From an uncultured Erythrobacter sp. (lineage in GTDB: Bacteria > Pseudomonadota > Alphaproteobacteria > Sphingomonadales > Sphingomonadaceae): 64,000 nt of DNA. The position numbers were made by a program, and so were the translations under genes. Below are positions 35,384 through 52,985 of this stretch, one piece after another (within the stretch, counting starts at the first letter, position 1; every line of letters begins with the position of its first letter). The notes under the pieces were generated by a model. That model had not been told where the DNA came from. It saw only the letters and a list, made by a program, of their open reading frames with translations, and did not search any database. The DNA lies in contig NZ_CANLMB010000001.1 of NCBI RefSeq assembly GCF_947492365.1, positions 744,001 to 808,000 on the forward strand, written 5' to 3'.

Positions 35384-35431
35384 AATGGTGGACGCACTAG
35401 GGTTCGAACCTAGGACCCGCTGATTAAGAGT
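35384..35431. repeat. Left attachment repeat (attL), tRNA-Lys 3' fragment
   Basis: 48 bp identical to 52908-52955. It contains the 3' 46 nt of tRNA-Lys from the anticodon loop through CCA, in the minus orientation, and is not a functional tRNA by itself. Confidence 0.95.
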
Positions 35432-35748: not shown

Positions 35749-37512
35749 TTATCGATGCAATATCTCTTCAACCTGTGCACCAATATGAGAAAACGCCGAA
35801 ATGACTCCATCGAACACGTGATCGAGGGCTTTGCCAAAGCCTTGGTTCACAGCGGCGATATCAAAACCCGCATTTTCGAGATGAGCCAGCGTCTCGCCTG
35901 CATCATGTGCATCGGAGATGCGCAGATCATTGTTGATGAAGAGCAGAGCTAGTGACGGGTTCCGCGTTGTAAGATCGTCCGGATCGCCTCCGGCACCGAA
36001 GGCATCAAGACTTTCTCCGTCTCGATTCAAACGTTCAAATACGTTCGTGAGGCCCTGCAAAAGCTTGAGGCTGCCCAGATCCTTGATTGACACTCGGGCA
36101 TGGCCAGCATGGACGAGAAGGTCTCGAAGGAATGCATTGGGTGTTTTCTGCCAGAGTTCATGAATACTTTTGCAACGCGACAGGAAAGCTTGCTCTGTCA
36201 TGTCGAGCGAAGCGACTTGCGCCAATCGCACTAGCTGCGGGTAATGAAGCCAACCGTTTGCATTTATCTCAGCGCGGGAAATACCGACGATCTCGTCAGC
36301 TCCCCGATCATCCCCGAAGTGTTGCCCAACTACCGAAAGAACATCTCCGAACCTGAGCAACTCAGCCACAAACCTACCCGTTTTCGAAGCAATGTGCTCT
36401 TCGGCTTGATCAAATTCAGCAACCTTCGCTGGTGTCAGCACATGCGCATGGGCATGAAGAATTTCTCGGTCCGGTTTGGGCTTATACAACTCGCGCATCG
36501 GCAGGCGGATCATGTTTCGACCAACTCGAATGCAATCTGTGAAACTCCACTGTCCTAGATAAGAAGGGTTACAATACCATGCCTGCTCAACCCGCGTGGG
36601 AACGGTGTTGAAGAAACCGCTTTGTTCGTAGCGTTCCAGAAATCGATCATCGAGATAGACAGGCGTCATCGCAGTAAGTGCGTTCGCCCTTGCATGAGTC
36701 ATTGGGCCTTCAATACCGGGCCAATTTAATCCTTCAGCGGACGGTTCGGGGCAAAGCTCCGGCGCGATGGCATGCACGATTGCCCAGAGTTGAATAAGGA
36801 GCCCGCCGTCATGCTCGCGGATGTCGAGGTCATACCAGCCACCTTTCGGCCTTAGCACCTCGTGTGCTTTGCCATTCATCAGGCCTCGAATTTCAGCATG
36901 ATCCGGCAGCAAAGCTTGATAGTAGATCAATCGAGCACCGTGGTTGCCCCGCATCCAGAGATATCGGCGCAGGTACTCATTCGACATCGTCCAGTTTACG
37001 TTGCGTTTTGACGTGTAATAATACTCCGTGGAGGTTTCCCCCTCAGAGACGCCAAACTCAGGCAATGATAGATCGTCGTAAATCAGTTTCTGTTGCTCAC
37101 CGCCAAGCACACGCGGCGTTAGACCAAGGGCGATCCAAACCTTTTCTGCGAGTTGATATCCGTAGAAGGAGCTATTCCCTTGCGAAGCGACAATGTAATC
37201 GAGACCTGAAATGGATGGAGAAAATTCCTTTATTTCGCCAAGCTCCCTCACATCAGGTTGCGAGAAATACACAACGCCGTGACCTGATTCATCATATTTC
37301 GAGATGTCGCCAGGTCCATCATCTGGAGCGAGCGCCATGATCATGTAAACGTGTTCGCGATTGGCTCCATATGGATCGAACTCAATTCGCGTCGTCACAT
37401 CAACTCGAAGATTTCTGTCTAGTCCTACAGGTTCCAGAAGGGCCACCAAGCGCGGAGGCAAGAACTCTACTTGTATTGGGAATTCATCAAGATAATCGAT
37501 CATCGCGGGCAC
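35749..37512 (-). CDS. Large unknown protein paired with an AlbA_2 protein
   Basis: 587 residues from GTG 37512 (or 584 from ATG 37503). No known domain recognised. It is soluble and mixed alpha/beta. Notable stretches are YWY-type aromatic clusters near 165-200, a D-rich region, and a C-terminal part with LALLFINNDLRISDAHDAGE and KALDHVFDGV that looks helical. It starts 12 bp after the AlbA_2-type gene, so the two form an operon at the left end of the island. Cargo location and pairing suggest a defence role, but nothing in the sequence proves it. Confidence 0.8.
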   Translation of the reverse strand: MPAMIDYLDEFPIQVEFLPPRLVALLEPVGLDRNLRVDVTTRIEFDPYGANREHVYMIMALAPDDGPGDISKYDESGHGVVYFSQPDVRELGEIKEFSPSISGLDYIVASQGNSSFYGYQLAEKVWIALGLTPRVLGGEQQKLIYDDLSLPEFGVSEGETSTEYYYTSKRNVNWTMSNEYLRRYLWMRGNHGARLIYYQALLPDHAEIRGLMNGKAHEVLRPKGGWYDLDIREHDGGLLIQLWAIVHAIAPELCPEPSAEGLNWPGIEGPMTHARANALTAMTPVYLDDRFLERYEQSGFFNTVPTRVEQAWYCNPSYLGQWSFTDCIRVGRNMIRLPMRELYKPKPDREILHAHAHVLTPAKVAEFDQAEEHIASKTGRFVAELLRFGDVLSVVGQHFGDDRGADEIVGISRAEINANGWLHYPQLVRLAQVASLDMTEQAFLSRCKSIHELWQKTPNAFLRDLLVHAGHARVSIKDLGSLKLLQGLTNVFERLNRDGESLDAFGAGGDPDDLTTRNPSLALLFINNDLRISDAHDAGETLAHLENAGFDIAAVNQGFGKALDHVFDGVISAFSHIGAQVEEILHR

Positions 37513-37524
37513 ACTTCGTCATGA

Positions 37525-38667
37525 CTAAGTATTGAAGGGGTTTTCAGGCCGCCGAATTCCGAAGGCCAGCCAGAAAGATCTTAGTAGGGGAATGAGGGCA
37601 GCGCGATTCATCATTTCAACACGTAGCGAAGGCAGTGTGACCTGATCACGCCATGCCGGATCAGACCAATATTCATTGTTCACGACGAGGTGATAGTTTC
37701 GAATGCCCGTAAGGCTGGCGTGGACCGTCCACGGGCCTTCTATGCCGAAAGGTTGGAGCCTTGCGACGCCCGATATCGCGGCGTCCAAAACACCATCTTC
37801 GAACCGTTTGGGCCAAACAATAGGCGCTTCAACTTTCCGGAGTTCATGGACGACACGTCCGATCGTCCAGACAACGTCGATTCTGCCTTGGCGATATGTG
37901 ATTGCATAGGAGCGGACAGCCCCGCTTTCGCTTGGGTTGGTGTGAAGCAAGACACCTTCAATCATCTCCACGGAATCCATGTAACCGGACGGCTTAATTG
38001 GTGCGAGCGCATTTTCGGGTTTAATGTCGAGATCACGTCTTTCGCGAAAGTAGGTCATAGGCACTAGCGATACGATTGCTTTCGGATCATCGCCGAGCCC
38101 GACTGGCAGATCGCCCCGGACGGCGGCTTCAACCGCTTGCAGGTGTAGGGAGTGGATGCGATTGGGAAGGGCCTCGCCAGCTACGAAAGCCTCGCGCAAT
38201 TCGTGCGTGTCCATCTCATATTTGGCATTCGATCTCCGGCTGAAAAAGCGGCTCCAGTTGCCGAAGATAATCCGATGAGGCCCTACTGGGCTTGGCGGCA
38301 CGCGGATAAGCAATACCCCTCGGCCCTCAGCGTAAGCGATCCATCGAAAATGGAGGCCTGGAATACGAGGCTCTACACCACTTTGGATGATGTCCTCCCA
38401 CCGCCGAAGCTCGGCGTCCGGATCGTCAATTGATAACTCGGCTATCGCGGTTGGTATGCCCCTAGGGGCATCGATTCCGTATAGGAGGTCACCGCCCTGC
38501 GAGTTGGCAAATGACGTGACGTCTGCGAGAAACTCTCGCTTGCTATCCTTGTCCTTCGGGTTGGGCAGATCCCTCTTATATTCGAGTGTCCGGTTTTCAG
38601 CGACACCGTTTGCTATCAGCCGATCAAGCGTGTCCGTGCCGATCGCCTCAAGTGGTTCAGAGATCAT
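37525..38667 (-). CDS. AlbA_2 / Schlafen-type putative DNA- or ATP-binding protein
   Basis: 380 residues. The N-terminal domain (about 12-160) matches AlbA_2 (PF04326): ENRTLEYKRDLPNPKDKDSK, REFLADVTSFANSQGGDLLYGI, and later LIRVPPSPVGPHR with a basic R-F-F-S-R-R-S. This domain occurs in regulators and in Schlafen-like nucleases and anti-phage proteins. The C-terminal 200 residues are unassigned. It is the first gene of a two-gene unit with the 587-residue protein, and divergent from the integrase. Confidence 0.85.
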   Translation of the reverse strand: MISEPLEAIGTDTLDRLIANGVAENRTLEYKRDLPNPKDKDSKREFLADVTSFANSQGGDLLYGIDAPRGIPTAIAELSIDDPDAELRRWEDIIQSGVEPRIPGLHFRWIAYAEGRGVLLIRVPPSPVGPHRIIFGNWSRFFSRRSNAKYEMDTHELREAFVAGEALPNRIHSLHLQAVEAAVRGDLPVGLGDDPKAIVSLVPMTYFRERRDLDIKPENALAPIKPSGYMDSVEMIEGVLLHTNPSESGAVRSYAITYRQGRIDVVWTIGRVVHELRKVEAPIVWPKRFEDGVLDAAISGVARLQPFGIEGPWTVHASLTGIRNYHLVVNNEYWSDPAWRDQVTLPSLRVEMMNRAALIPLLRSFWLAFGIRRPENPFNT

Positions 38668-38810
38668 GATTGCCTACTGCCTTGCTTAACTCGATTCCAG
38701 CATATCGTATCAGGCTGGAGTTTTCTGCTTTATACTGTTTGCAACCCAGGCTTTTCTTTGAGATTGCTTGAAAACTGTGATTATTGATGTGCCGTTGAAA
38801 GGAACGGCAC

Positions 38811-39953
38811 GTGCGCAAGGCGCTCACTGACAAGTCACTCAAGGCCCTAAAACCCAAGGCCAAGCGCTATGAGGTGCACGACCTTTTGTGCCCCGGTTTT
38901 AGTGCAAGGGTGAGCGTCCGTGGGAGAATCAGCTTCAGCGTCAAATACCGTTACGGTACAAAGCAAAAGCGGTTCTCATGCGGCATCTATCCTCGCGTTT
39001 CGTTAGCCAAAGCACGGGAGATCGCGTTGGAGGTCTTGCGGCAGGTCGATGAAGGGATCGATCCGGCACGTCGTCGTCGACAGATCGATCTCACGGTTGA
39101 GGCTGTAGTCGGCGACTTCGTCAAGATCTATGCCTGTCCGAATAACAGGAGCTGGAAGGAAGCCCAGCGTGTTTTGAACCGAGAACTTGTAAGCGTTCAT
39201 GGGCAGCGCGACATCCGCAAGATCTCACGCGAAGACGTTCTCGAAATCATGGACGCTGCATCAGCACGTGGCGCGCTCTATCAGTCGAACCGCATTCTCG
39301 CGCATATTCGTAAGTTGTTTAACTGGTGCATCGAACGCGGGATAGTTGAGACGAACCCAACCAACGGTATCCGCAAACAGCATAGGGAGGTCGCGCGCAG
39401 CCGCGTTCTGGACGAGCAGGAAATCACGAGCCTGCTCAATGCCTGCGCTCAGGATGGTTATCCGTACAAGCAATATGTGCCGCTGCTTCTTGCGACGGCC
39501 CAGCGACGCGGTGAGCTAGCCAATATGCGCTGGTCCGAACTGGATCTCGAGAATCGCACTTGGACTATTCCTGCCGAGCGATCGAAGAACGGAAAACCGC
39601 ATGTCGTGCCGCTTAGCGATTATGCGATGAAGCTGCTCGATGAGGTACCGCAGTTCGTGGATTGCGATCTCGTATTCACGACTACCCGAGTGTCGCCGAT
39701 AAGCAGTTTCAGCAAGGCGCTTCGCCGCCTTCAGGCGGTCTCTGGAACATCAGATTGGCATATGCATGACCTGCGCCGTACAGCCACTTCGGGCATGGCC
39801 AGTTTGGGCGTCGATCCTCATGTTGCTGACAAAATTCTCAACCATATGAGCGGAATCATTTCGGGGGTAGCGCTGGTGTATAATCGGCATAATTACAAGG
39901 ACGAGAAGCGCGAAGCGCTAGAGAAATGGGGGCAGTATCTTGCAAGACTCTGA
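38811..39953 (+). CDS. Tyrosine recombinase / P4-type integrase
   Basis: Catalyses island integration at tRNA-Lys. The 380-residue protein starts at GTG 38811 behind AAGGA. It has an N-terminal DUF4102-like arm-binding domain (SFSVKYRYGTKQKRFSCGIY), a core-binding SAM-like domain, and a catalytic domain. The catalytic residues are Arg232 (ATAQRRGEL), His319 and Arg322 (HDLRRTATSGM), a later His in LNHMSG, and nucleophile Tyr357 (VYNRHNY). All catalytic residues are present. The next gene overlaps it by 14 bp. Confidence 0.95.
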   Translation: MRKALTDKSLKALKPKAKRYEVHDLLCPGFSARVSVRGRISFSVKYRYGTKQKRFSCGIYPRVSLAKAREIALEVLRQVDEGIDPARRRRQIDLTVEAVVGDFVKIYACPNNRSWKEAQRVLNRELVSVHGQRDIRKISREDVLEIMDAASARGALYQSNRILAHIRKLFNWCIERGIVETNPTNGIRKQHREVARSRVLDEQEITSLLNACAQDGYPYKQYVPLLLATAQRRGELANMRWSELDLENRTWTIPAERSKNGKPHVVPLSDYAMKLLDEVPQFVDCDLVFTTTRVSPISSFSKALRRLQAVSGTSDWHMHDLRRTATSGMASLGVDPHVADKILNHMSGIISGVALVYNRHNYKDEKREALEKWGQYLARL

Positions 39954-40572
39954 TCGAATGTTCGACGCTCAATTCGAAAACGAGCTGCGAAAGAAAACAG
40001 GCCTCGAACCCCAGACTACTGCCAAGTTGGCGAGAGCATTCGAGCCGATTGGGAAGCGGTTTCACAAGGTCCTTGAGACCACCCCCACAAAATTCGAAGT
40101 TGGTCCGCGCTACATTACTCCTAAGAAGCACCTAGAGTGGCTGGAGGACAACGCGCGAGAACCACTCTCTAAGCTGGTTGGCGCTCTTGCGAAGCGCGAG
40201 AAGTTTTCCTCTCGACCCGATATTCTCGCTAGCGAGTTAACTGAAGCGGACTGGACCGAACTCACTCGTGTTCTCGGCAAACTTGACCTGTATTCGAACG
40301 AGCTTTCTGACTGCATTGAAGGCCGGAAGGCTGACAAATCAACCGTCAACGCGGAGTTGCGATTTGAGCTCATTTGTGAGCTGGCCGATGCTTGTGAGCT
40401 AGCTGGTGTCGAAGTGTCGCGTGATCACCATAGCAGCGGAGAAGATACAGCAACATCTGCCATCATTCTGAAAGCTGCTAGCGCAAGGATATGCGGGAAG
40501 CCATTTACCCTCGATCACCACTTGCGTGACTATCTGAAACTTCGTCCGGCAAAGAAACTTAGAAACGCCTGA
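39940..40572 (+). CDS. Hypothetical protein coupled to the integrase
   Basis: 210 residues from TTG 39940, inside the integrase 3' end. ATG 39958 gives a 204-residue version. It is a soluble, helical, charged protein with no recognised domain and ends in the basic RPAKKLRNA. Its location between integrase and the AlpA-like regulator suggests a role in the element's maintenance, not in cargo functions. Confidence 0.7.
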   Translation: MQDSDRMFDAQFENELRKKTGLEPQTTAKLARAFEPIGKRFHKVLETTPTKFEVGPRYITPKKHLEWLEDNAREPLSKLVGALAKREKFSSRPDILASELTEADWTELTRVLGKLDLYSNELSDCIEGRKADKSTVNAELRFELICELADACELAGVEVSRDHHSSGEDTATSAIILKAASARICGKPFTLDHHLRDYLKLRPAKKLRNA

Positions 40573-40676
40573 TTTTTTGCCAGAGCAAGTGTTGGCGCCC
40601 GGAAGCAGATGGCGTCATTTAGGACCACGAAGGTCCGGACCTTCATCAATTCAGACTGATGAAGGAAACCTTGAAA

Positions 40677-40901
40677 ATGACAGATCAATCAAATGACGGC
40701 GGTGTGCGCCGCCGGTTCTACACGCGCGAACACCTGCGCAGATTAGGTGTTACGCAAAGTGCAAGCACACTCTTGCGGTTAGAGGCTGCTGGGCGCTGGC
40801 CCAAGCGGATTCGAATTGGCGACCATTCGGTCGCATGGATCAAAGAAGAGGTTGACGCTCATCTCGATGCGCTTGCCGCTGAGCGGGAGGCTGGTCGATG
40901 A
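40677..40901 (+). CDS. AlpA-family / excisionase-like helix-turn-helix protein
   Basis: 74 residues from ATG 40677, preceded by AAGGA; ATG 40659 would add six residues. The MerR/AlpA-like wing-helix pattern is clear: YTREHLRRLGVTQSASTLLR, then RWPKRIRIGDHSVAWIKEEVD. Such proteins activate integrase or act as excisionase in P4-like elements. It overlaps the next small gene by 4 bp. Confidence 0.85.
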   Translation: MTDQSNDGGVRRRFYTREHLRRLGVTQSASTLLRLEAAGRWPKRIRIGDHSVAWIKEEVDAHLDALAAEREAGR

Positions 40902-41071
40902 ACCATTTTGTGATGCGCGAATATCGCGATCCTCAAACGGGTATCAGCATTACCCGAGTTTTTGCGTTCGAGGCCGAGACACAGGAAGAATATCAAGCGA
41001 CACTGGAAGAGATCAATCGAATGCCGCCGCCTGATGTTCCCGACGGATTGGGTGGGGAGGATATCCAATGA
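40898..41071 (+). CDS. 57-residue protein between the AlpA and primase genes
   Basis: A small gene bounded by ATGA overlaps on both sides: ATG 40898 in the AlpA stop, TGA 41069-41071 in the primase ATG. The product (MNHFVMREYRDPQTGISITR ... ending GGEDIQ) is soluble and acidic, with a predicted helix (EEYQATLEEINRM). No family recognised. Double coupling strongly supports that it is translated. Confidence 0.7.
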   Translation: MNHFVMREYRDPQTGISITRVFAFEAETQEEYQATLEEINRMPPPDVPDGLGGEDIQ

Positions 41072-42831
41072 GCAAATCCACCACCATTCGCGTTCGTTTC
41101 GATCAATCTGCGTCGGTGTTTGGCATGATGCAGTGGTTTGCAGGGCAGGGCATTCCTGTCCTGCCGATCCACGGTATCGTCAATGGCTCCTGCACATGCG
41201 GGCGCAAAAACTGCGAAAGTCCGGGCAAGCATCCCATTAGCGCGCTTGTGCCGAACGGCGTGAAAGGAGCGACAACAAAGCTCAAAACCATCCGCAAATG
41301 GCATCGCGAATATCCGGATATGAACTATGCGGTTGCTACTGAGGGCCTGGTGGTCATCGATTGCGACAGCAGGGAGGCGATAGCCTCGTTCAGGTCTCGC
41401 TACCGGCCACCGCGAACACTTACCGTGAAGACAGCGCGAGGCCTCCATTTCTACTTTGATGGCGAAATGCCTTCGCGCAACGGTGCTCAGCACAAGCTCG
41501 ATGTGAAGAGCGGGAAGGGGGCTTATGTTGTCGGCCCTGGATCACGTCATGTGAACGGTGCGATCTATGCAGTTTGGGAGGATCGCCCGATTGCTGCGCT
41601 TCCCGTTAACATCGCTTCGATCACAAAGAGAGTTCGCGAGCACGAGGAAGAAACCGGCGGTGCCCCCATTCCTAAGGGCATGCGCAACAGCACACTGACC
41701 CAGTTTGCGGGTTACCTTCATTCGAAGGGCGTGCCACAGCAAGCTGCTCTGGCGGCGTTGAAAACACTCAATCAGGATATGTCTGATGAGCCTTTACCTG
41801 ATCGCGAGGTGCGAAAAATAACGCGCAGTGTGTCGCGCTATCCGGCCAAGGCATTCCCTCAGATGATTCCATTCTCGGAGATACCTGAGGAGCAGCTGGA
41901 ATTCCTATGGTACCCCTACATCTGTCTCGGTACGCTGGGACTTCTCGATGGTGATCCAGGCGATGGCAAGAGCCAGTTCACCGCATGGCTCTGCTCACGC
42001 GTGAGCCGGGGTCAGACCCTGCCCAACGGCGAGAAGATCAAGCCTTCAAATTGCTTCTTGCTCAATTTCGAAGACTTGAAGGGCGCAGTGATAAAGCCGC
42101 GATTGATAGCGAACGGAGCAGACCTGTCTCGCGTGTTTATCCAGACTGTCGCGTTCGATCTCTCGAAGGAAATGACGGATTGGTTGGACGGCGAAATCGC
42201 CGAGAAGCAAGTGCGCCTAGTGTTCATCGACCCGATCCAAGCAACGATGACAGGCGTTGACGGCAACAGCAACATTCAGGTTCGCGAGTTCATGTCTCGC
42301 CTCGGAGAAATTGCCGATAGGCGACGTTGCGCGATAATCTGCGTCCGCCATTTCGGTAAGGGTCCGCAAGAGCAGGCCATGAAAAAAGGGTTGGGGTCGA
42401 CCGACTTCGTTGGCATTTCACGCAACCAATTCGGTCTTGTCCGACGCAATGATGACGTGCGTGGGTTTATCCTACTTCACCTAAAAACCAACTTCGAGAA
42501 GGGCGATGCCATGCTATTCACGATGGGCGACGCGGATGGTCGGAAGGGCGAACAGCCGAAGATCGCTTTCGACAAATTCGCTGATATCGACGCTGATGAA
42601 TTCTTGTCAGCTGATCCAACTTCACGCGGTCCACAGCAGGACGAACGGCAGGTAGCCAAAGACTATCTACTGGAAGAGCTCGCCGATGGGCGAAAAGAGG
42701 TCGGACCGTTGAAACGCAATGCCGAGGCAAGGGCTATCAGTGCGTCAACCTTGGATCGGGCGCGCAAGGAACTCGAAATCACCCCTCAACGTGAAGGCAA
42801 GAAATGGTTCTGGGAATTGCCGCCTGAATGA
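41068..42831 (+). CDS. Primase-polymerase with RepA-type AAA ATPase domain
   Basis: Replication initiator or primase of the element, 587 residues. The N-terminal prim-pol domain (PF09250-like, about 18-190) has catalytic D98-C-D100 in LVVIDCDSRE, His127 in TARGLHFYF and a Cys pair (C-T-C-G ... C) that may bind zinc. The C-terminal AAA_25/RepA-like ATPase (about 280-500) has Walker A DGDPGDGKSQF and Walker B VRLVFIDPIQ, then the sensor-like VRHFGKG. It is the last gene of the int-AlpA-primase series and is followed by iteron-like repeats. Confidence 0.9.
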   Translation: MSKSTTIRVRFDQSASVFGMMQWFAGQGIPVLPIHGIVNGSCTCGRKNCESPGKHPISALVPNGVKGATTKLKTIRKWHREYPDMNYAVATEGLVVIDCDSREAIASFRSRYRPPRTLTVKTARGLHFYFDGEMPSRNGAQHKLDVKSGKGAYVVGPGSRHVNGAIYAVWEDRPIAALPVNIASITKRVREHEEETGGAPIPKGMRNSTLTQFAGYLHSKGVPQQAALAALKTLNQDMSDEPLPDREVRKITRSVSRYPAKAFPQMIPFSEIPEEQLEFLWYPYICLGTLGLLDGDPGDGKSQFTAWLCSRVSRGQTLPNGEKIKPSNCFLLNFEDLKGAVIKPRLIANGADLSRVFIQTVAFDLSKEMTDWLDGEIAEKQVRLVFIDPIQATMTGVDGNSNIQVREFMSRLGEIADRRRCAIICVRHFGKGPQEQAMKKGLGSTDFVGISRNQFGLVRRNDDVRGFILLHLKTNFEKGDAMLFTMGDADGRKGEQPKIAFDKFADIDADEFLSADPTSRGPQQDERQVAKDYLLEELADGRKEVGPLKRNAEARAISASTLDRARKELEITPQREGKKWFWELPPE

Positions 42832-42836
42832 CCAGC

Positions 42837-42945
42837 TTTTCACCTTTTCAAGTTTTCAACGCCGGGTGGGGGGAGGTTGTGCAATCACATCCTTCCTCCT
42901 CAATCACCAATGATTGCCGGTGTTGAAAACCTGAAAACATGAATT
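42837..42945. repeat. Iteron-like repeats forming an inverted repeat, candidate replication origin
   Basis: Three tandem 8-mers of the type TTTTCAnn (42837-42860) are mirrored 51 bp away (42922-42945). The larger arms, 42845-42865 and 42917-42937, match inversely at 19 of 21 positions. Placed directly after the primase/helicase gene in a convergent intergenic space. The arrangement suggests an origin; a terminator is the alternative. Confidence 0.5.
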
Positions 42946-42980
42946 TCTAATGGGAATCCGATTTGTTGGCCCGGCGTCCT

Positions 42981-43247
42981 TCATTCGGCCAAGGTTGTCA
43001 GCGCCTTCCGCGCTTCTTCAAGGGCGTTAGACCCAACTGTCCATTGCCATGGCTGACGCGGCACATGAGCTTCGGCCAAGGCTGGGAACTCATCCTTCTT
43101 GCTGACCGCAAGCCGCAGCAGCATTCGCGCTTCACGCGGCTTCATCTTCATTTGCTCGCACAGATCGGCAAGCGTGATGGTTTTAGCTTTGTTGGTCGCC
43201 TTCCGGCTGCGAGAGGCAGCACCTGAGTTGATCGTCGTTTTCGTCAT
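42981..43247 (-). CDS. Hypothetical 88-residue protein
   Basis: 88 residues from ATG 43247, which has CAGGAG about 6 nt upstream. The N-terminus is basic and disordered (SGAASRSRKATNKAKT). A helix-turn-helix-like region follows, TLADLCEQMKMKPREARMLL then RLAV, suggesting a DNA-binding regulator. The last part (WQWTVGSNALEEARKALTTL) is helical. Convergent with the primase gene. Confidence 0.65.
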   Translation of the reverse strand: MTKTTINSGAASRSRKATNKAKTITLADLCEQMKMKPREARMLLRLAVSKKDEFPALAEAHVPRQPWQWTVGSNALEEARKALTTLAE

Positions 43248-43333
43248 AGTGGTCTCCTGTCGTTGACCATCAGACCGATTAAGACAGGTTCCCAAGGCTT
43301 GTCAGGGTCGAAATCCAGAAATCCTACAAAACT

Positions 43334-43350
43334 GGACCCGCTGATTTAGA
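43334..43350. repeat. Internal attachment-site-like sequence
   Basis: GGACCCGCTGATT at 43334-43346 is identical to 13 bp of the 48-bp att core (35413-35425) in the same orientation, followed by a near match (TAGA versus AAGA). It lies between two gene blocks of the island. It may be a relic of a second insertion or of tandem elements. Confidence 0.5.
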
Positions 43351-43438
43351 ATGAGGCTGTCTGGGGCGGATAGACTATGGGATTGCGTGTCTTTTTGCTG
43401 TCAATCGACAGCGCTGGGTCACCACTGGGTACCAGACC

Positions 43439-44323
43439 TCACTTCTTCCACTTTTTAGTCTTGCTGAACTTCTGAACAGCGATGGACACCTCAGATCCAC
43501 TGCCGATGCGCTTGTAGTACTTGATACTCTTTTCAAGTGCCGCTTGCTCATCGGCCCAAGCGCTTCTGGGTCCGAGTGAATCAAGCGAGAAATTGTTGTT
43601 GGTCAATGCTGCAATGATCTTCGGATATCGCCGAGAATAGAAGTCCCAGACGGTGAGAGCTTTAGCGCGAACGGTAGGCTCTTTGTTGTTTCTCATCATC
43701 TTGTAAGTGTCTTGAAGGAACCGGATAGATTCCGGCATGTTTGGTGCCATATCCGCTACTTCGTGATACGAGACTGGATACGATTTAGCACCTAGTTCGT
43801 GTAACTGCTCAATTGGTCTAGAAAGGTAGACAAACGAGTACTCATCATCAAACTGATCAAGGCGAAAAAAGCGATTATAGGGAACACAGTCTTGGTGCAT
43901 GAGAAGCCCAAAGAACGGCAGTCCCTGCTCAGCGAGATAAGCACGAATAAGTGCGCCTCCGAAGAAGCATTCGACATTATCCAATTGAAAATGATGGAAG
44001 TCGCCGCCCACTAGAATTGCACGAAAGTAGATGTCTTGCCCAACCAAACGAGAATAAAGATCTTCCGCGAATTCAGTAAGATACCATACTATGTATTCGC
44101 GATCCTCTTTGCTTTCCACAAGCTCAGGGTTGTAGGTTAAGATCGTGTCTGAGAATACGATTGTCTTGAAGTTTGGGTGATCGTGAACATTCAACCTATC
44201 CAATATGGAATATACCCGCGCAACCTTGCGAGGATCATTAAGTGTCATGTCCTTAAAGCCAAGAATGTCGATGTATAAGAGAAAACGGGTGGGAGATTCA
44301 GCGCTCAAAACACTTCCTTGCAT
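43439..44323 (-). CDS. Divergent class III nucleotide-cyclase-like protein (homologue of 44534-45493)
   Basis: 294 residues. The pattern fits a class III cyclase-type fold: first metal-Asp motif in FLLYIDILGFKDM (D19), second in TIVFSDTILTY (D59), then FRAILVGGDFHH and FFGGALIRAYLAEQ (about 100-132). The downstream gene in the opposite direction encodes the same series of motifs. Catalytic activity is inferred; no substrate motif is clear. GC content is visibly lower than in core genes. The gene is divergent from its homologue across 210 bp. Confidence 0.75.
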   Translation of the reverse strand: MQGSVLSAESPTRFLLYIDILGFKDMTLNDPRKVARVYSILDRLNVHDHPNFKTIVFSDTILTYNPELVESKEDREYIVWYLTEFAEDLYSRLVGQDIYFRAILVGGDFHHFQLDNVECFFGGALIRAYLAEQGLPFFGLLMHQDCVPYNRFFRLDQFDDEYSFVYLSRPIEQLHELGAKSYPVSYHEVADMAPNMPESIRFLQDTYKMMRNNKEPTVRAKALTVWDFYSRRYPKIIAALTNNNFSLDSLGPRSAWADEQAALEKSIKYYKRIGSGSEVSIAVQKFSKTKKWKK

Positions 44324-44533
44324 GATCCAGCTCGCTTGTTAGACTACCTCATTAGCCAATTTGAAGCGGAGTCACGAGTTTAGCAGAAGATATCGAAGGT
44401 GAGCTTGTCTTCTGAAGATCGGCTGGTTTGAAATATGCGCGCGTCATCCCGAAATGTCTTGACTGAGGGTGAGTAAATTGTCGTTCGCTTCCTGCACCGG
44501 TGCCTTTCCCTCTTCAGCACAGGAGAATAAACC

Positions 44534-45493
44534 ATGGCCGATCGTCAAAGCCCTGTGCAAACCGTCGCAGAAGTTGTGGAATCAGTGGAACGGCGGGCAA
44601 AGGACCGGAAGAAGGCACGCTCTGAGTTGGCAGCAGAAGTGGCGGCTCGCGTTCCAGGTGAAGGCTATGAGCCGTGCATTGTTAGCTTCATTGACGTATT
44701 GGGGTTTCGCGATCTTCTGACCACGCGTCATGCGCATGAGATCAGGGACATCATGCTGAGGCTGCGCGAATTTACGATGCCAGATAAAGCAAAGACGCCG
44801 AGGCGAATGAAAGACGCGCGTCTCTTCAGCCAGCCGTTTTCGGAGTCAGTCTCGGACGCAGTTGTACGTGTTCGTGTCTTTGAGACCCAATATCATGACG
44901 GCGCCTTTTTTCACGAGCTGCTCGACCTGCTTCATGCGCAAGTTCGATGCGTAGGTAGCGGAGTTGTCATTCGCGCCGGAGTTACCATTGGCGATGCTCA
45001 TACTGGCATTGACGGCAGTGGTCCGGTCTTCGGACCAGCGATGGTTCGAGCATACGAAATTGAAAGCAACGAAGCAGTTCAACCGCGAATTGTAATTGAC
45101 GAAAGCGCATATCAATCTTTCCTCACTGATACTCGCCTACACAAGGAAGACCATTGTGCCGAGGAAGAGATTGGTTACGTAAACAACCTGTTACGAACCG
45201 ATATCGATGGAACTCGATTCATTGACTATCTCTCGGCTAGTGAATCTGAGTTTGATCACCCTGGCGAGTACTTTGAGTTCTTGGATGATCACACAGCACT
45301 GATCCGCGACAAGGTGGCAACAACAAACGTAAAGGTGCGTGCCAAATTCGCGTGGCTCGCCAGTTATCACAATGAAATTGTAGAGCAGGTTATTGATGAG
45401 TTCTCTAACGGGGCAAGGTCGAGTAATGCATTTTGGGACGAGTTCGATTGCGACCCATTGCCGTTGCTCCAGGCGATGGTAGTCGACATCTAA
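44534..45493 (+). CDS. Divergent class III nucleotide-cyclase-like protein (homologue of 43439-44323)
   Basis: 319 residues, start ATG 44534 behind GGAG. An N-terminal coiled helix (about 10-40) precedes the domain: IVSFIDVLGFRDLL (D54), ESVSDAVVRV (D108), VIRAGVTIGDAHTG (about 145-158), GPVFGPAMVRAYEIES (about 163-178) and RIVIDESAYQ. A later shared block reads KVRAKFAWLASY. These match the order of class III adenylate/guanylate cyclase motifs. The family is undefined to me. The stop overlaps that of the convergent gene by 4 bp. Confidence 0.75.
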   Translation: MADRQSPVQTVAEVVESVERRAKDRKKARSELAAEVAARVPGEGYEPCIVSFIDVLGFRDLLTTRHAHEIRDIMLRLREFTMPDKAKTPRRMKDARLFSQPFSESVSDAVVRVRVFETQYHDGAFFHELLDLLHAQVRCVGSGVVIRAGVTIGDAHTGIDGSGPVFGPAMVRAYEIESNEAVQPRIVIDESAYQSFLTDTRLHKEDHCAEEEIGYVNNLLRTDIDGTRFIDYLSASESEFDHPGEYFEFLDDHTALIRDKVATTNVKVRAKFAWLASYHNEIVEQVIDEFSNGARSSNAFWDEFDCDPLPLLQAMVVDI

Positions 45494-46074
45494 TGCCGAG
45501 GCACCTCGCCAACGGCTGCCCGTAGCCGTTCGCTATAGAGCTCTTGAGCACCATCTTTCGCCAGTTTTAGTTCCTGAACCTTGGTGTATCGATTTCGACC
45601 ACGTGGACGAGAATAGCGCCTATCCCCTTCGACCTGCCTGTTCAGCTTTCGCACTTTTCGACGAGCGCGGGATAGGTCATCCTCACTCTGGCTGGCGTAA
45701 GCGAGCCTATGGGCCTTGCGTGATGCGAATATGCCATCGACGACGAAAAGCTGCTCACACCGTGATCCAGTTAGCGGGCATAGGAAGTAGCAGCGATAAC
45801 CACCGTAGGGGCAGGGAACACACTCGATCGCCGCGCGCTGATTTGGTACGTCACCGGCAATGCGTATTGCGGCATCGCTCTCGTCGCTCAAATCGAAGAA
45901 AATTCGCACCTCAAGCGCCTCTAGATCCTGATTTCGCCATCGCAACGTGTCATACGTGCATTCACCGGGTTTCAGCAGCCCAGCGCGCTTCAGCACGCGT
46001 AGGTCGATGACAGGAAACTGCTCGACTGCTCCGTGATGGACAGTGCGTTTCCGCCCGGAATTGATGCCGCCCAT
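45490..46074 (-). CDS. Uncharacterised alphaproteobacterial protein with degenerate zinc-ribbon
   Basis: 194 residues from ATG 46074, with GAGAGG upstream. It begins MGGINSGRKRT and has VIDLRVLKRAGLLKPGE, CVPCPYGGYRCYFLCPLTGS and a C-terminal RLAYASQSEDDLSRARRKVR. I recall a widespread alphaproteobacterial family with the same blocks, in which two C-x2-C pairs surround a ribbon. Here the second pair (usually C-R-x-C) is replaced by S-R-K-A, so zinc binding is probably lost or altered. Function unknown. Convergent with the cyclase-like gene. Confidence 0.7.
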   Translation of the reverse strand: MGGINSGRKRTVHHGAVEQFPVIDLRVLKRAGLLKPGECTYDTLRWRNQDLEALEVRIFFDLSDESDAAIRIAGDVPNQRAAIECVPCPYGGYRCYFLCPLTGSRCEQLFVVDGIFASRKAHRLAYASQSEDDLSRARRKVRKLNRQVEGDRRYSRPRGRNRYTKVQELKLAKDGAQELYSERLRAAVGEVPRH

Positions 46075-46191
46075 GATAGCCTCTCTGTGCCGCTGCAACT
46101 GGGCGATTATACGAAATAGTCTGGCGAAGATCAGGTAAAACCCCGGCTATACAGCTTTCTATTGCCTGAAAGGCCCACCCGTCCCATACAG

Positions 46192-46375
46192 CTTGGTGAT
46201 GCCGCCACGCACGGCATTGGGGATTAGTAACCCCGAACCGAACGGTCGGTGCAGACCGAAAACTGCACCACACGCCTTGACCTATGGTCGGGGTGCCCAT
46301 GGCGCATGTCCAGGGCTCCCGCCTAAAGGTCATGGGGCCGATTCGGTTCGGTTTACTAACACCCCGATCACCAAG
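46192..46375. repeat. Long imperfect inverted repeat between divergent genes
   Basis: Ends CTTGGTGAT (46192-46200) and ATCACCAAG (46367-46375) are perfect 9-bp inverted termini. Inside, both arms carry TTACTAA with CCCC, TTCGGTTCGG and AGGTCA-type blocks in mirror order, with a unique 18-bp insertion in the left arm. A 7-bp hairpin (GGTGCAG/CTGCACC) lies at 46248-46269. It could be a shared divergent promoter/operator or a MITE-like element. No clear target-site duplication. Confidence 0.55.
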
Positions 46376-46384
46376 TCTTGGTGT

Positions 46385-46418
46385 GAAGTCGAAGCGGGGG
46401 CGTACCGCCATCGACTTC
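46385..46418 (+). promoter_or_regulatory. Stem-loop in the leader of the DUF5818 gene
   Basis: GAAGTCGA pairs with TCGACTTC around an inner GCGG/CCGC stem, ending 17 bp before the ATG at 46435. It partly precedes the ribosome site GGGGAG. It could regulate translation. Confidence 0.4.
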
Positions 46419-46434
46419 CGGGGAGTTACCCGAA

Positions 46435-46659
46435 ATGCCGATGGGAACACGTCACACGGTGACGGGCATCCTGCGTCCGTCGCAATATGGCCTTTACGCA
46501 CTAGAGATGGATGGAGGCGGTGTCTGGCAACTCGATTGCGGGTGGGGCTGGAAAGCGCGGAAGTTGGCCGGTCAGCGTGTCACGGTCGAAGGCACTAGGG
46601 GTGGGTTTAATTTGCTGGACGTTAATCGGATGCGGATTGCTTGTTCGGACAGTGCTTAA
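46435..46659 (+). CDS. DUF5818 small protein
   Basis: 74 residues: TRHTVTGILRPSQYGLYALE, then a G-G-G-V-W-Q-L-D block and RVTVEGTRGGFNLLDVNRM. This matches the small DUF5818 family of Sphingomonadales, a predicted OB-like beta barrel, function unknown. GGGGAG is about 8 nt upstream. It has no same-strand neighbour; a short hairpin with a T-run follows at 46688. Confidence 0.78.
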   Translation: MPMGTRHTVTGILRPSQYGLYALEMDGGGVWQLDCGWGWKARKLAGQRVTVEGTRGGFNLLDVNRMRIACSDSA

Positions 46660-46687
46660 GCCATTTGGCTAGACTGCTGTAGATGGG

Positions 46688-46710
46688 CCGGAGTCGGTTG
46701 GTCCGGTTTT
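46688..46710 (+). terminator. Weak intrinsic terminator after the DUF5818 gene
   Basis: Stem CCGGA/TCCGG with a 9-nt loop followed by TTTT, 29 bp after the DUF5818 stop. Confidence 0.4.
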
Positions 46711-46740
46711 GAAACGCAAACAGCCGAAAACCGCTGCCCG

Positions 46741-49167
46741 TCACGAGTTCGCACGCTGAATATGAAACGCCATCGGAACGTTCGGAAGATGATGCTCTGA
46801 GCTCGACATGAGCAGAAGCCTATTGATCGTATTGTCTTGAATGCCAGCAGGCGGGATAACGCACGAGACTTTTCCCTCGTTTCCCGGCTCGCCTCGTTTG
46901 CGGAGCTCTTTCTGAACTGAAAAATGGATTTGTGAAAAGCGCGCGGCAAGCCCTTCTTCAAAATTTGGTTTGACGCCACGATCGGAGACAGAACTTAGAT
47001 ACCGAAACATCTTAGCGAATATGCTTGGATAACCGTCCAGTACTCCCTGACATGACAGATCGACGATGCGGTACGGATTGTCAGGGAAAAGGAAAGAGGC
47101 GTGAGCAATCTTCGCCGAAAGGCTCCGAAGCCTCACAGATGGAGCATCCGTGCGCGGCCTAGAGGCCCAAAGGACTTCACGCCATCGGAAGGTGCTGTCG
47201 GTAACAATAGAAGCTCCGGTCGCTTGTGCGAGATACATAGCGATCTCGAAATTCGGACCCATCTGCATCAATCGCATCTGCCCTCCATCCTCTCCGCCGC
47301 CAAAAATGCCGTCCTGTAAGGCAGACAGTGGATCCTCTTTTTTCAGTCGCTCGAGTTCGAACCACATTTTGGCTAAGCCAACATCATCAATGTCCGGAAA
47401 GTTCTCACGAATCCGTGCCTCCTGCGCTTCGCGCGGCCACATCAAAACGTCACGGAGAAAGTCGACACGCATCAGCTCATCCATTCGCGGTTCGTCTTTC
47501 AGGCTGATTTTAAGTCCGGCAGTGCGCGCTTTCGCCATCGCCATGGTCTCTCGTCGAAGATTGTAGTCGAAGTTCCATGGGTCTGGGATGAGGTTGATGA
47601 GCCCTGCATCCACCAACGGCATCACGTTAAGTAGGAACGCGACAGATTTAAGAAACTCGAGGTGATAACTCTTAGGCTTCTCCGTTGGTCTAAATTTCTC
47701 GGCAATCGTACCCGCGTGAGCCATTGGGTTCTGGATGATTAGCTCATCGAAATAAAGTGATGCGCCCAAAGCAAACTCACCGATTGATTGCGGGTGAAGG
47801 GAGCCGGTGTAAACCGCTCGTGGTCGACCGTCAGGCTTGGGCAGAAGAGAAAGCAGATCAGTTTCCAGCGGCCAAAGCGCCTCGTTCAGGACGTAAACTT
47901 CCCGAATTTGATCTTCGGTCAGGTCACGCCTGACAGCGGTCCAGTCTTTGCCCGTCTCCATGCCGAGGATCGACAAAATGCCCCGATGTAATGCTAGGTT
48001 TCGTTCGCGAATGCTCTTTTCTGTCCAACTCGGTCTGAGGGCAGCGGGTCTGGTCCGACAGCAATCCCGATAGGCGATGCCGGACCCACATCCACAAAAA
48101 TCCTTGGGATTGAGGCCCTCTGCTGGCGGTGACCTTTTTAGAAACGCGCGTTCCTTTTCGGTGCGCCCGTAGGCGTCCTGATAGTGGAAGTCGCCGTTCT
48201 CAAATTTTGCATAAATTTCACCACCAAAATGCCAAAGCTCGTCAACTGGCGGGAGCAGGACGCGACGAAGGTCTTCCCAGTCTGCGGTGACCGATCGTTC
48301 AGGAAACAACCACTCTTTACGACCCGCTGCGACATAACGCCGTGTCCTCGATTTTAGGATCATATTCACCGCGGCCACTTCGCTGCTCTGCAGCTTTCTT
48401 GTCCGAATGAAGTCGATCGTACTAACCATTGACTGGCGGTAATTGCGAGCAAAGGTCCGCTTCTCAAGGGGCGGCGCATTTTGGTCCTGAGCATATTCAA
48501 GGTTGGTGAGGATTAGGCAGTGGTCGCGGCCTAGCGGAAAGACTGTCTGTGATCCTTTGAGCGCTATGCTCGGATCCTGCGGATCGGCACATTCAGGCGC
48601 GTCAGGCGGCAGGGCGTGGTTGAATATCGTGACCGGGTGATCCGTTACGATAAACTTCACATCGCTATCTTCAGCGGAGACAATCTCACGCACGCCTTCA
48701 GTCCAGATCGTACAATGAAGATTGCGTATGCCCTGCATCTCCATCATCAACTCATTTTGCGACAGCGATGGATATTGGCTCCGCAACCAGTCGAGCCCTT
48801 TTGGCGTCCGGAGCTTTTGGACATCGACATACTCGAATAAGTCTTGAAAATGGTCGTGCCAAAGAGATTGGTCATCTTGCTGAAACGCCCGCACCGCCCG
48901 CGATCCGCGTTCGTCGATGGCTCCAAACAAGCGCTTTTCTATCTCGTCGTTTACGGATGTTCCAAAAAAAGTGGAATAGAGGTCGGTCTGAAAGAAGCAG
49001 CGAGACGTTGGCGAGGAAAATAGCGCTCGTCCAGTAACGGTACCCCCATCAGGCAGTACATGCTGTTCGGGCTGCAGGTCGAGAAAGGCTAGCGTCTGCT
49101 TCTCTGGTTCAAAGAACTCGCGTTGATACCATTGAGGCACATAGTGATTGTCTCTGCTCTTGGACAT
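46741..49167 (-). CDS. Large DUF4238 protein with SEC-C zinc motif
   Basis: 808 residues. The N-terminal DUF4238 domain (about 1-290) has NHYVPQWYQREFF at residues 7-19 and the F-I-V-T-D-H-P-V motif. A SEC-C zinc-binding motif follows: FCGCGSGIAYRDCC (Cys358, 360, 369, 370). The C-terminal 400 residues contain a G-x-x-D/E-rich region and are unassigned. DUF4238 appears again in 50643-51743, so two members of the same family lie in this island. Function unknown. Convergent with the DUF5818 gene. Confidence 0.82.
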   Translation of the reverse strand: MSKSRDNHYVPQWYQREFFEPEKQTLAFLDLQPEQHVLPDGGTVTGRALFSSPTSRCFFQTDLYSTFFGTSVNDEIEKRLFGAIDERGSRAVRAFQQDDQSLWHDHFQDLFEYVDVQKLRTPKGLDWLRSQYPSLSQNELMMEMQGIRNLHCTIWTEGVREIVSAEDSDVKFIVTDHPVTIFNHALPPDAPECADPQDPSIALKGSQTVFPLGRDHCLILTNLEYAQDQNAPPLEKRTFARNYRQSMVSTIDFIRTRKLQSSEVAAVNMILKSRTRRYVAAGRKEWLFPERSVTADWEDLRRVLLPPVDELWHFGGEIYAKFENGDFHYQDAYGRTEKERAFLKRSPPAEGLNPKDFCGCGSGIAYRDCCRTRPAALRPSWTEKSIRERNLALHRGILSILGMETGKDWTAVRRDLTEDQIREVYVLNEALWPLETDLLSLLPKPDGRPRAVYTGSLHPQSIGEFALGASLYFDELIIQNPMAHAGTIAEKFRPTEKPKSYHLEFLKSVAFLLNVMPLVDAGLINLIPDPWNFDYNLRRETMAMAKARTAGLKISLKDEPRMDELMRVDFLRDVLMWPREAQEARIRENFPDIDDVGLAKMWFELERLKKEDPLSALQDGIFGGGEDGGQMRLMQMGPNFEIAMYLAQATGASIVTDSTFRWREVLWASRPRTDAPSVRLRSLSAKIAHASFLFPDNPYRIVDLSCQGVLDGYPSIFAKMFRYLSSVSDRGVKPNFEEGLAARFSQIHFSVQKELRKRGEPGNEGKVSCVIPPAGIQDNTINRLLLMSSSEHHLPNVPMAFHIQRANS

Positions 49168-49249
49168 TTGCCCCGACTAGCACGCCGATGGCGCTCAAAC
49201 GATCCGCTTGCGTGTTTAGCAAACTTAACTTCTTATGGTTTGACTACTC

Positions 49250-50605
49250 TTAAGGCAACACAAATGGGCGAGCAGAAGGATCATCCGAGAAATAGAGAAT
49301 CAAGTGATCGTCATCTTCATCTAAGTCTCGGGGTGCCATCTCGGCCCCGCTTATCGTCAAACCCCGGCTCAGCCAATGCTCAAAGATATTCCGAGAGTTG
49401 TTTGGTTCGAGCAGAAGTCGGAATTGCTTTTCCGTCATTCGGCCGGCGAGGAGGTCGAGTAACATTCTTGCGGGAAACTCAATTCGCAGATCATCTTTCC
49501 CTGTGGTGCTCTTGATGGTCATACCTAGATACTGCCCTCTCGAGTTTGGTTGGAAGGAGCCTTGTCGAAATAGCGACCTAGCTTGGTAACCTTCGTAGTG
49601 GGGTGCCGGGAGCGAACTGGCTATCTCTTCCAACGCAGGAGGCGGATCGGGCAGCTTGGATGTTCCGAAGAAACTCACGTTCCACCGGCGACGTTTCCGT
49701 CCGATAATGTCAGTTTCACCAAATCCAGAGCTGTCTTTGCAAGGCGAGAACACGACGATTGCGTCGACCTCTTCACTGTATTTGGCAACAAAGTGGCTGA
49801 TAATCTGAGACCCAGAGAAGGTTAGTTGGCTACCGTACGTTTCTCTCCCCTCTCCAATTCTTCTCAGCAAGGTAGAACCGACATCGGCAACAAAGATGAC
49901 CCGCAAGGTGTCTGCGTGTGCTGCCTTGAGTTGTCGCTTCTTTCTACGCAGCAGTCCAAATAGTGGATTGCCCTCAAGAGAGTGGGTCTCAGGCGGCATG
50001 CTGCTATGGATGTTGTGGTACCGCGTTTGACGGTACGATTTCCGCTCCACGGTCACGTCAAGTCCTGCATCGCTCAGCCTGATTCTTTGGGTCAATGATC
50101 TTCCGCTCGAGACCCATTGCGCCAACGCTTGTTTGATATGTTCCCGCAGTTCATAGTTCTTTGGTGCCATGCGTTTCCGGAAATACTGACCTCTCTCGAA
50201 CCCACTTTCCTCCGCGAAACTGAAATAGAGAAAGTTCCCGCTACCTTTCTCCGCTTCGTTTGCCGCCGCACTCATTTGCCGTGCGATCGCGTCCATCTCT
50301 TCTTCGCCGGAAATCGCGTTATCGTTTGTCGCGGCTATTTCGATCGCTGCCTCGCGTCCGGGCACTAGCCTATCGGTAACGATATCGGGGCGCTTTTGAT
50401 CACCCCACCATTCGGGCTCGATTTCAAGGCCACCCAAACGTCCAGTAGCCCAGACAAGAGCCAGTTCCATTTCTGCTGGAAGTGCCTGCGCGACATACTT
50501 TGTATCGTTAAGTCGGCGCAAGAGATCGCGACCCTTCTGCGGGTCGAGCGTGGGGGCGAGCTGGTCGAGCATTGTTTGTATCCGCCGACGCGCAAAAATC
50601 GTCAT
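49250..50605 (-). CDS. Hypothetical 451-residue protein, possibly nuclease-related
   Basis: Start ATG 50605 has AAGGG 6 nt upstream. Residues about 45-95 contain E-M-E-L-A-L-V, then R-P-D-I-V-T-D (73-74 are P-D) and A-A-I-E-I-A, a spacing like the PD-(D/E)xK nuclease fold, but the final lysine is replaced by alanine (E89-I-A91). This is weak evidence. A conserved-looking middle (VIFVADVGSTLLRRIGEGRE) and acidic C-terminus follow. It is divergent from the DUF4238 gene across only 37 bp, so they may share regulation. Confidence 0.75.
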   Translation of the reverse strand: MTIFARRRIQTMLDQLAPTLDPQKGRDLLRRLNDTKYVAQALPAEMELALVWATGRLGGLEIEPEWWGDQKRPDIVTDRLVPGREAAIEIAATNDNAISGEEEMDAIARQMSAAANEAEKGSGNFLYFSFAEESGFERGQYFRKRMAPKNYELREHIKQALAQWVSSGRSLTQRIRLSDAGLDVTVERKSYRQTRYHNIHSSMPPETHSLEGNPLFGLLRRKKRQLKAAHADTLRVIFVADVGSTLLRRIGEGRETYGSQLTFSGSQIISHFVAKYSEEVDAIVVFSPCKDSSGFGETDIIGRKRRRWNVSFFGTSKLPDPPPALEEIASSLPAPHYEGYQARSLFRQGSFQPNSRGQYLGMTIKSTTGKDDLRIEFPARMLLDLLAGRMTEKQFRLLLEPNNSRNIFEHWLSRGLTISGAEMAPRDLDEDDDHLILYFSDDPSARPFVLP

Positions 50606-50642
50606 TACTTACCCTTAACAACCATCTATACTACAAAAGCCG

Positions 50643-51743
50643 ATGCCTCAGAACAAAAGCCATCACTACGTGCCGCAAATGTATATGCGTCTATTCGCGC
50701 GTGCTGGCGACAACAGAATCGGCGTCTTTGCGATCGAACGCGAAAAGTTCATCCCCAACGCTCCGATACGCGGTCAAGCGTGCCGGGACTACTTCTATGG
50801 CAAGGATGGCCTCGCCGAGCGCGCCTTTGGTAGAATCGAAGGACCTGCCGCACGTATATTCGCTCGTGCGATCGCCGAGCGCCAACTGCCGACCACAGGG
50901 AGTCAGGAGCATGAATGGCTGATCTTTTATCTTGGCATGCAGCACTCTCGCACTCTCGGCGCTGCTGAGCAGCACAATGAGATTTCGGAAAAGGCCGCTA
51001 AATCGGTGCTCCGGACAAAGGCCGAGCTTGAGGGAAATCAAGAAGTTATCGACGCACTTGCAAGGGTTAAGATCAGACGTTCAAACGCCGTTTCCGAGCT
51101 CGTGCAATACGCGACAATTGGTGCCTCCTTGCTTGCCGATCTCGAATTTGTGCTCATAGATAACTCATGTACGACGCCTTTCATTGCCTCGGACACGCCG
51201 GTTGTCCTCCACAACAGGCTCTATGAAGACCAGGACATAAGCGTGACAGGCTATGCCAATGTCGGATTGCAGCTATTTTTGCCGCTTGGACCAAAGCTTG
51301 CGCTGTTTGGTTTCGACCGCGCCGCCTACCAGGTCGAGACAAACGCGCGCGGCACTATTCAACTTTTTGATGATGCGCAGGTCGCGCTTATTAATGACCT
51401 TCAGTGGGAGGCGGCGCAGGCCGCACTATTCAGTTCAGCAAGCACATCGGAACGCGAATTTTTAGCCTCGGCTTTGAAGTGGGCTAAGCTCAGAAAGAGA
51501 GAACGAACATTTTTCCGCGAGGAGATTGTCGCGCAATCAGAAAGTGAAGTGCGGACGCGGCATGGATCGGGCGCCGCACCATCAACAATCAAGCTCGACC
51601 TCTCGTTCGTTCGTTGCATATTGACCCGTCCGAGAACACTGAGGGCTTGGGAAGTGCCGCCATTCCGCGATGCGGATCGCGTTGCGCGTGTTGACCGCGC
51701 GTTTGCACGTTTGGATATGTTGAACGAGTTGAGGGAGCAGTGA
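50643..51743 (+). CDS. DUF4238 protein
   Basis: 366 residues. The signature HHYVPQMYMRLFA is near the N-terminus and F-I-A-S-D-T-P-V-V near residue 182. These are the same two motifs as in the 808-residue protein. No Shine-Dalgarno is evident before the ATG, so the transcript may be leaderless. The next gene, HNH-like, begins 3 bp after the stop, forming a two-gene operon. Biological function unknown. Confidence 0.85.
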   Translation: MPQNKSHHYVPQMYMRLFARAGDNRIGVFAIEREKFIPNAPIRGQACRDYFYGKDGLAERAFGRIEGPAARIFARAIAERQLPTTGSQEHEWLIFYLGMQHSRTLGAAEQHNEISEKAAKSVLRTKAELEGNQEVIDALARVKIRRSNAVSELVQYATIGASLLADLEFVLIDNSCTTPFIASDTPVVLHNRLYEDQDISVTGYANVGLQLFLPLGPKLALFGFDRAAYQVETNARGTIQLFDDAQVALINDLQWEAAQAALFSSASTSEREFLASALKWAKLRKRERTFFREEIVAQSESEVRTRHGSGAAPSTIKLDLSFVRCILTRPRTLRAWEVPPFRDADRVARVDRAFARLDMLNELREQ

Positions 51744-51746
51744 GAG

Positions 51747-52622: not shown

Positions 52623-52697
52623 AGCGTGCGAACAATTGTCCCAAACTGCCAATGGAAAGCGCGCCAGTTCGCAACTGTGCTCCCTGGCAATGACCTC

Positions 52698-52739
52698 TGC
52701 CGACGATGACCATCTTTGAGTCTAGCTCGTCGGCATTTT
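52698..52739 (+). terminator. Likely intrinsic terminator of the DUF4238-HNH operon
   Basis: TGCCGACGA (52698-52706) pairs perfectly with TCGTCGGCA (52727-52735) around a 20-nt loop, then TTTT. It lies 75 bp after the HNH gene stop. The rest of 52623-52909 shows no gene. Confidence 0.55.
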
Positions 52740-52846
52740 GGATGTAGTGCGTTCAATCACCATTTTTGGGGGGAGGTGTCCGAGAGTATGAACATTTTCA
52801 TTTGGGGCGCAAAGCAGCCATACAAGTAACTATCTCACTATTCTGT

Positions 52847-52863
52847 GACCCCATTGGGACCCA
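52847..52863. repeat. Right arm-type repeat of the island
   Basis: GACCCCATTGGGACCCA differs from 35553-35569 at two positions and has the same orientation. It lies 44 bp inside the right att repeat. The TGGGACCCA core is nearly palindromic, as expected for an integrase arm site. Confidence 0.5.
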
Positions 52864-52907
52864 CGAACGGTCGCTGACTGAACCAATCGCCAATAACTCA
52901 TTGAAAA

Positions 52908-52985
<78 letters not shown>

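Follow-up and report, generated by a model that had tools for sequence, protein, structure and literature searches.

Pycsar and CBASS are nucleotide-signalling immune systems in which an enzyme is paired with a linked effector. We analysed a 64,000-nucleotide stretch of DNA from an uncultured Erythrobacter sp. (hereafter the window), in which two divergent neighbouring genes, A and B, encode proteins whose predicted fold is of the same class as that of PycC of Pycsar and which, likewise, are carried on mobile DNA. The family to which they belong apparently travels alone on mobile elements, with an altered active site, and none of the Pfam, NCBIfam and PADLOC matches of A and B is a model specific to it. 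The papers listed in a literature search included no description of this cyclase-fold family, and a term search of PMC9519451 gave no mention of cyclase.

The reading we prefer, with a probability of about 0.5, is that A and B are separate, stand-alone, mobile enzymes of an uncharacterised family, converting NTPs on a class III cyclase fold in answer to a phage-type trigger and probably anti-phage in function; their relatives may aid bacterial resistance to viruses. Such a family would either supply nucleotide signals from a new source or put the cyclase fold to a new use, and either outcome is directly testable using single-gene constructs.

The integrative element and its two predicted cyclase-fold genes

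A and B are cargo of a 17.5 kb tRNA-Lys integrative element, with the following features:

35384..52955: integrative element, 17.5 kb, with a 48-bp perfect direct repeat at both ends
35384..35431: distal attachment-site copy, a tRNA-Lys segment
37525..38667, minus strand: SLFN_AlbA_2 protein, cargo
38811..39953, plus strand: tyrosine recombinase (integrase), named from its own sequence and a match to locus L029, which encodes a Pfam phage integrase
40659..40901, plus strand: small AlpA-like regulator, named by sequence reading, without family match
41068..42831, plus strand: primase/helicase with Prim-Pol, PriCT_1 and AAA_25
43439..44323, minus strand: gene A, predicted cyclase-fold protein, 294 aa from ATG; key residues metal Asps D19 and D59, C-terminal K221
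44324..44533: divergent A/B intergenic region, 210 bp between the ATG starts
44534..45493, plus strand: gene B, predicted cyclase-fold protein, 319 aa; key residues metal Asps D54 and D108, C-terminal K271
46741..49167, minus strand: 808-aa protein with DUF4238 at its N-terminus, cargo
50643..51743, plus strand: DUF4238 protein, 3 bp upstream of the HNH gene
51747..52622, plus strand: HNH_5 protein, under the Pfam cut-off, with a weak PtuB-like match
52908..52955: attachment-site copy overlapping tRNA-Lys(CTT) (tRNA gene 52910-52985, minus strand)

No family was assigned to the remaining element genes. GC content in 2-kb steps is 0.51-0.55 between 36001 and 54000, and 0.57-0.63 in the other steps of the window. 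In two relatives from the genus (G419 and G402), part of the same tRNA-Lys segment is duplicated, and comparison of the 14 island genes with these genomes gave the integrase as the sole match (36% identity, in G402); the tRNA-Lys site is a recurrent integration site whose content differs between genomes. The first-pass annotation had placed the two genes in a defence-type island, in agreement with an integrative element that carries other genes of defence-like type. By eye, the 808-aa protein has an apparent SEC-C-like motif (CGCGSG...CC) after its DUF4238 domain, and the N-terminus of a 451-aa protein without family (49250-50605, minus strand) gives the impression of a PD-(D/E)xK nuclease pattern.

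Both open reading frames were found at the positions first assigned to them. The ATG of gene B has AGGAGA 7 nt upstream. The database copy of A (P0001) is 289 aa long and the A relative P0003 starts, with MSTDSPTRF, at the equivalent of A residue 6, so that the true start of A is probably the TTG at 44308, giving a 289-aa product. The 210-bp divergent gap would leave room for separate A and B promoters; a sigma-70 scan of 43300-45700 returned no match (2.8 on average in shuffles). Both proteins carry the same ordered motif blocks, exactly as had been described at first pass: the first Asp lies in LYIDILGF in A (D19) and SFIDVLGF in B (D54), the second in FSDT (D59) and VSDA (D108), respectively, followed by FRA....GDFHH and IRA....GDAH, by FGGALIRAYLAE in A and FGPAMVRAYEIE in B, and by a common VRAK.

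A single BLASTP comparison between A and B gave 27% identity over 129 aa (E 5e-5). At E <= 1e-3, 246 homologues were found for A and 207 for B; among the best 120 of each, those that bear a name are hypothetical or uncharacterized, two B relatives being also called 'Guanylate cyclase domain-containing'. A matched no family in Pfam, PADLOC or NCBIfam at E <= 1, and B gave weak Pfam matches and nothing stronger, PF00211 among them at 12.0 bits for a cut-off of 21.9, so that neither protein reaches the PF00211 cut-off. PF00211 appears at E <= 1 in 15 of the 62 aligned B-type relatives (best E 0.004) and is absent among the families listed for the 60 aligned A-type relatives. Profile-profile comparison with nine ordinary cyclase domains yielded no useful score for A and a weak score for B, and the B alignment alone was used. 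Confident models predict that A and B share the class III cyclase catalytic-domain fold, which supports the fold class proposed at first pass; the fold matches listed for these models include no PycC entry. Given the number of homologues, the confident models of one fold and the conservation of both Asps, the likeness between A and B goes beyond chance.

Conserved and replaced residues of the active site

Like the class III cyclases (PF00211; Rv1264, Rv1625c, CyaB, soluble guanylate cyclase), with which they share the predicted core fold, A and B have their first metal Asp in (F/Y)xDxxGF and their second in the following hairpin, which are the standard class III places as judged from sequence and predicted secondary structure, and they keep the Arg and Gly of the R.G....G strand and the Glu after the VNxAxR position. 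Unlike these cyclases, they have SD for GD, their transition-state Asn and Arg are replaced, they add a C-terminal helical extension with VRxK and they score under the PF00211 cut-off. The likeness to the catalytic metal motifs noted in the first-pass annotation thus holds for the metal Asps, rightly placed in the predicted structures, and ends there because the canonical Asn and Arg are replaced.

The two metal Asps are kept in 59/59 and 60/60 sequences of the A homologue alignment and each in 62/62 of the B alignment, and the C-terminal Lys is found in 60/60 and 62/62, respectively. The equivalents of the VNxAxR Asn and Arg are I126 and L130 in A, and V171 and E175 in B, the latter two placed by alignments to Rv1625c and to ordinary cyclase domains. 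In place of the Asn, all 60 A sequences have I or V and all 62 B sequences have V or A; R occupies the Arg position in 2 of the 62 B sequences. A wider set comprised 75 distinct sequences: Asp stands at the first metal position in all 74 with a letter there, SD is found in 75/75 and the C-terminal Lys in 72/73; N stands at the Asn position in 3/75, R and K at the Arg position in 4/75 and 7/75, and NxA[AS][RK] occurs in none of the 75. Scans with peptide patterns containing the Asp motifs supplied 48 of these sequences; the other 27 agree, with both Asps in 27/27. Because the MAFFT family alignment misplaced the row of one ordinary cyclase (CAN_L066), canonical residues were taken from CAN_L067, the Rv1625c alignment and the ordinary-cyclase profile alignment. 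With Asn and Arg so rare and the NxA[AS][RK] pattern absent, cyclisation is not to be assumed, a point that weighs against the reading we prefer. Class III cyclases select their base through Lys/Asp or Glu/Cys pairs; the residue four before the second Asp is I55 in A and E104 in B, and the counterpart second position is ambiguous.

The replacement of Asn and Arg in A, B and nearly all of the 75 relatives, beside two invariant metal Asps, is what would be expected if the fold had been kept and cyclisation lost, A and B binding metal-nucleotide as sensors, NTP hydrolases or some other transferase. We judge this unlikely: the near-invariant C-terminal Lys could restore catalysis and, according to PMC11224242, PycC enzymes can differ in their pocket residues and still be active. 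If A and B are instead NTP-converting enzymes, as we prefer, each protein would probably form a homodimer in which the two invariant Asps hold a metal-bound NTP. A trigger such as phage infection would lead to conversion of the NTP to a nucleotide product, the conserved Lys in the C-terminal helical extension probably making up for the lost transition-state Asn and Arg, a role that we infer from sequence. The product would act via a host receptor encoded at another chromosomal site, or the consumption of NTP would itself halt growth. Rather unlikely, in our view, is the further proposal of a large unnamed cyclase-fold branch with a rebuilt centre (SD, no VNxAxR, and a catalytic Lys belonging to a new C-terminal domain), a new nucleotide product and one-gene immunity without a linked effector.

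Comparison with Pycsar

No membrane or TIR effector of Pycsar type had been visible next to the two genes at first pass, and each search made near them came back empty: Pycsar effector families were not found in the 10 of 14 island proteins scanned, a hydropathy count gave no multi-span protein in the genes around A and B, and the six cNMP_binding matches of the genome, in five open frames, all lie outside the window. That no linked receptor was found near A and B counts against our preferred reading. PADLOC PycC models matched neither A nor B (E <= 1), nor any of six scanned relatives (E <= 10). The genome also encodes two ordinary PF00211 cyclases; nine PycC models match one of them and no PycC model matches the other, indicating that the sensitivity of this test is limited. 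One strong PycC (match to PDLC00766, E 4.5e-102), adjoining a cNMP-binding/TIR-like gene named by eye, reads AANHAAK and keeps the Asn and Lys at the positions replaced in A and B. Since the PycC models are unmatched, the Asn and Lys of the PycC examined are replaced and the window has no cNMP_binding match, we do not assign A and B to Pycsar; they further differ from PycC in that no linked cNMP-binding TIR or membrane effector was found, and are best read as non-Pycsar.

An orphaned Pycsar-like cyclase signalling to a chromosomal cyclic-nucleotide receptor would fit the PycC fold class of A and B, the cNMP_binding proteins encoded elsewhere in the genome and the imperfect sensitivity of PADLOC, which leaves one ordinary cyclase without a PycC match. 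The aromatic residue two before the first Asp is also as in PycC, where the pairs are F60/D62 and F100/D102 (PMC11224242), yet it occurs in both ordinary cyclases of the genome too. In Pseudomonas (locus L006, 9950-13174), 1.4 kb separates an A relative from an opposite-strand CAP12/Pycsar-type TIR gene, with one small gene between. Such an origin is nevertheless improbable in view of the PycC models that A, B and the six relatives fail to match and the other ordinary cyclase does match, of the Asn and Lys retained by the strong PycC, and of the placement of every cNMP_binding match outside the window.

Genomic setting and distribution of relatives

The setting of A, B and their relatives is mobile and defence-like, and the family would travel as cargo of integrative elements, prophages and plasmids. 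A relatives occur in 7 IMG/VR contigs and B relatives, weakly, in one; none of 50,697 phage records matches A or B. Both the single weak viral contig for B and the lack of matches in phage records count against the preferred reading. At one locus (L059), an A relative lies between a Phage_GPA gene and a portal gene, with further genes intervening; this is the position of P2 cargo between gpA and gpQ, a defence hotspot according to PMC9122126, the main text of which has no occurrence of 'cyclase'. The window element differs from that hotspot in being an integrative element of the tRNA-Lys type. Another A relative (L004) sits amid tail and baseplate genes, and when the small gene upstream of A in the related prophage loci L004 and L061 was compared with the other 10 upstream proteins, no match was found. 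On conjugative repABC plasmids, a B relative comes directly after repC in Agrobacterium (L070) and after repC and a small ORF in Rhizobium (L071), before integrase and DUF1403 genes in both. In Sulfitobacter a B relative adjoins AbiEi/AbiEii, and in Mesorhizobium one lies near HipA.

These positions after repC would suit a function of A and B in element maintenance (plasmid stability or copy control, excision control) in place of immunity. We give this little credence: relatives are found in prophages and chromosomal loci too, and tblastn (E <= 1e-3) against the other fetched loci gave nothing for 11 of the 12 island genes besides A and B, the integrase matching five of these loci at 26-45% identity, A loci in four cases.

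Neighbouring genes were compared all against all (212 entries, each of 100 aa or more and no further than three genes away, two-member loci being partly counted twice). The largest cluster, of 6 entries from 5 loci, is integrase-like, and the rest are clusters of two, six of which span two loci; a conserved partner gene was rejected for lack of a frequent neighbour, which counts against the preferred reading. A Pfam scan of 20 chosen neighbours gave a mixed set (UvrD helicase, LRR, TPR/GIY-YIG, HNH, AbiGi and others, with WG repeat plus trypsin in two loci). For two distant A relatives from Bacteroidia (L038 and L041), the gene that directly follows encodes a WG-repeat plus trypsin-like protein, and other distant relatives adjoin LRR, TPR/GIY-YIG or DUF4062 proteins. 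With PADLOC, 109 neighbour proteins from 16 loci matched 134 families, the 25 listed including LmuA/LmuB (which we take to be Lamassu), SngA (presumably Shango), SIR2, AbiE and a type II methyltransferase. In a control, six stretches chosen arbitrarily from the window's own genome supplied 92 proteins, which matched 45 families, with very strong matches among the 25 listed to DpdF (1e-227), PsyrT, IetA, BrxH and SngC. Defence enrichment near the relatives was rejected, the two scans being poorly separated, and this too counts against the preferred reading; the contrast in defence families between neighbours and control is suggestive only.

A and B occur independently of each other and are best read as independently mobile. 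Among 278 genomes of the family, A is present in 1 and B in 4, both together in the window's own genome alone; at the level of the class, 10 genomes out of 385 have B. A scan of GTDB contigs gave 43 A loci from several phyla, none with an intact B-type neighbour within the fetched flanks (up to 10 kb per side, often shorter), one of them (L039) having an A-type gene with a broken B-type remnant; 72,556 plasmid records gave 48 matches to B and none to A. A tree of 74 family rows, with one ordinary cyclase as root, separates the A clade (51 rows, support 0.98) from the B clade (23 rows, support 0.84) at its first split, so that the pair does not stem from a recent duplication. The conserved pairing envisaged in the first-pass annotation was therefore rejected as a general system, almost every relative inspected being unpaired. 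The only sign of an A and B pair elsewhere is a longest-contig value of 13479 shared by P0003, the second-closest A relative, and P0121, the closest listed B relative. That one two-gene system has A and B as its subunits (a heterodimer, or a sensor plus an enzyme), as their divergent adjacency, this shared value and the L039 remnant might suggest, is very improbable given the tree split and the occurrence of B without A in 3/4 B-carrying family genomes and 48/48 B-carrying plasmid records. In two family genomes (G800 and G747), the B relatives (L107 and L108) have a stop within the match, indicating that decay of B-type genes occurs too.
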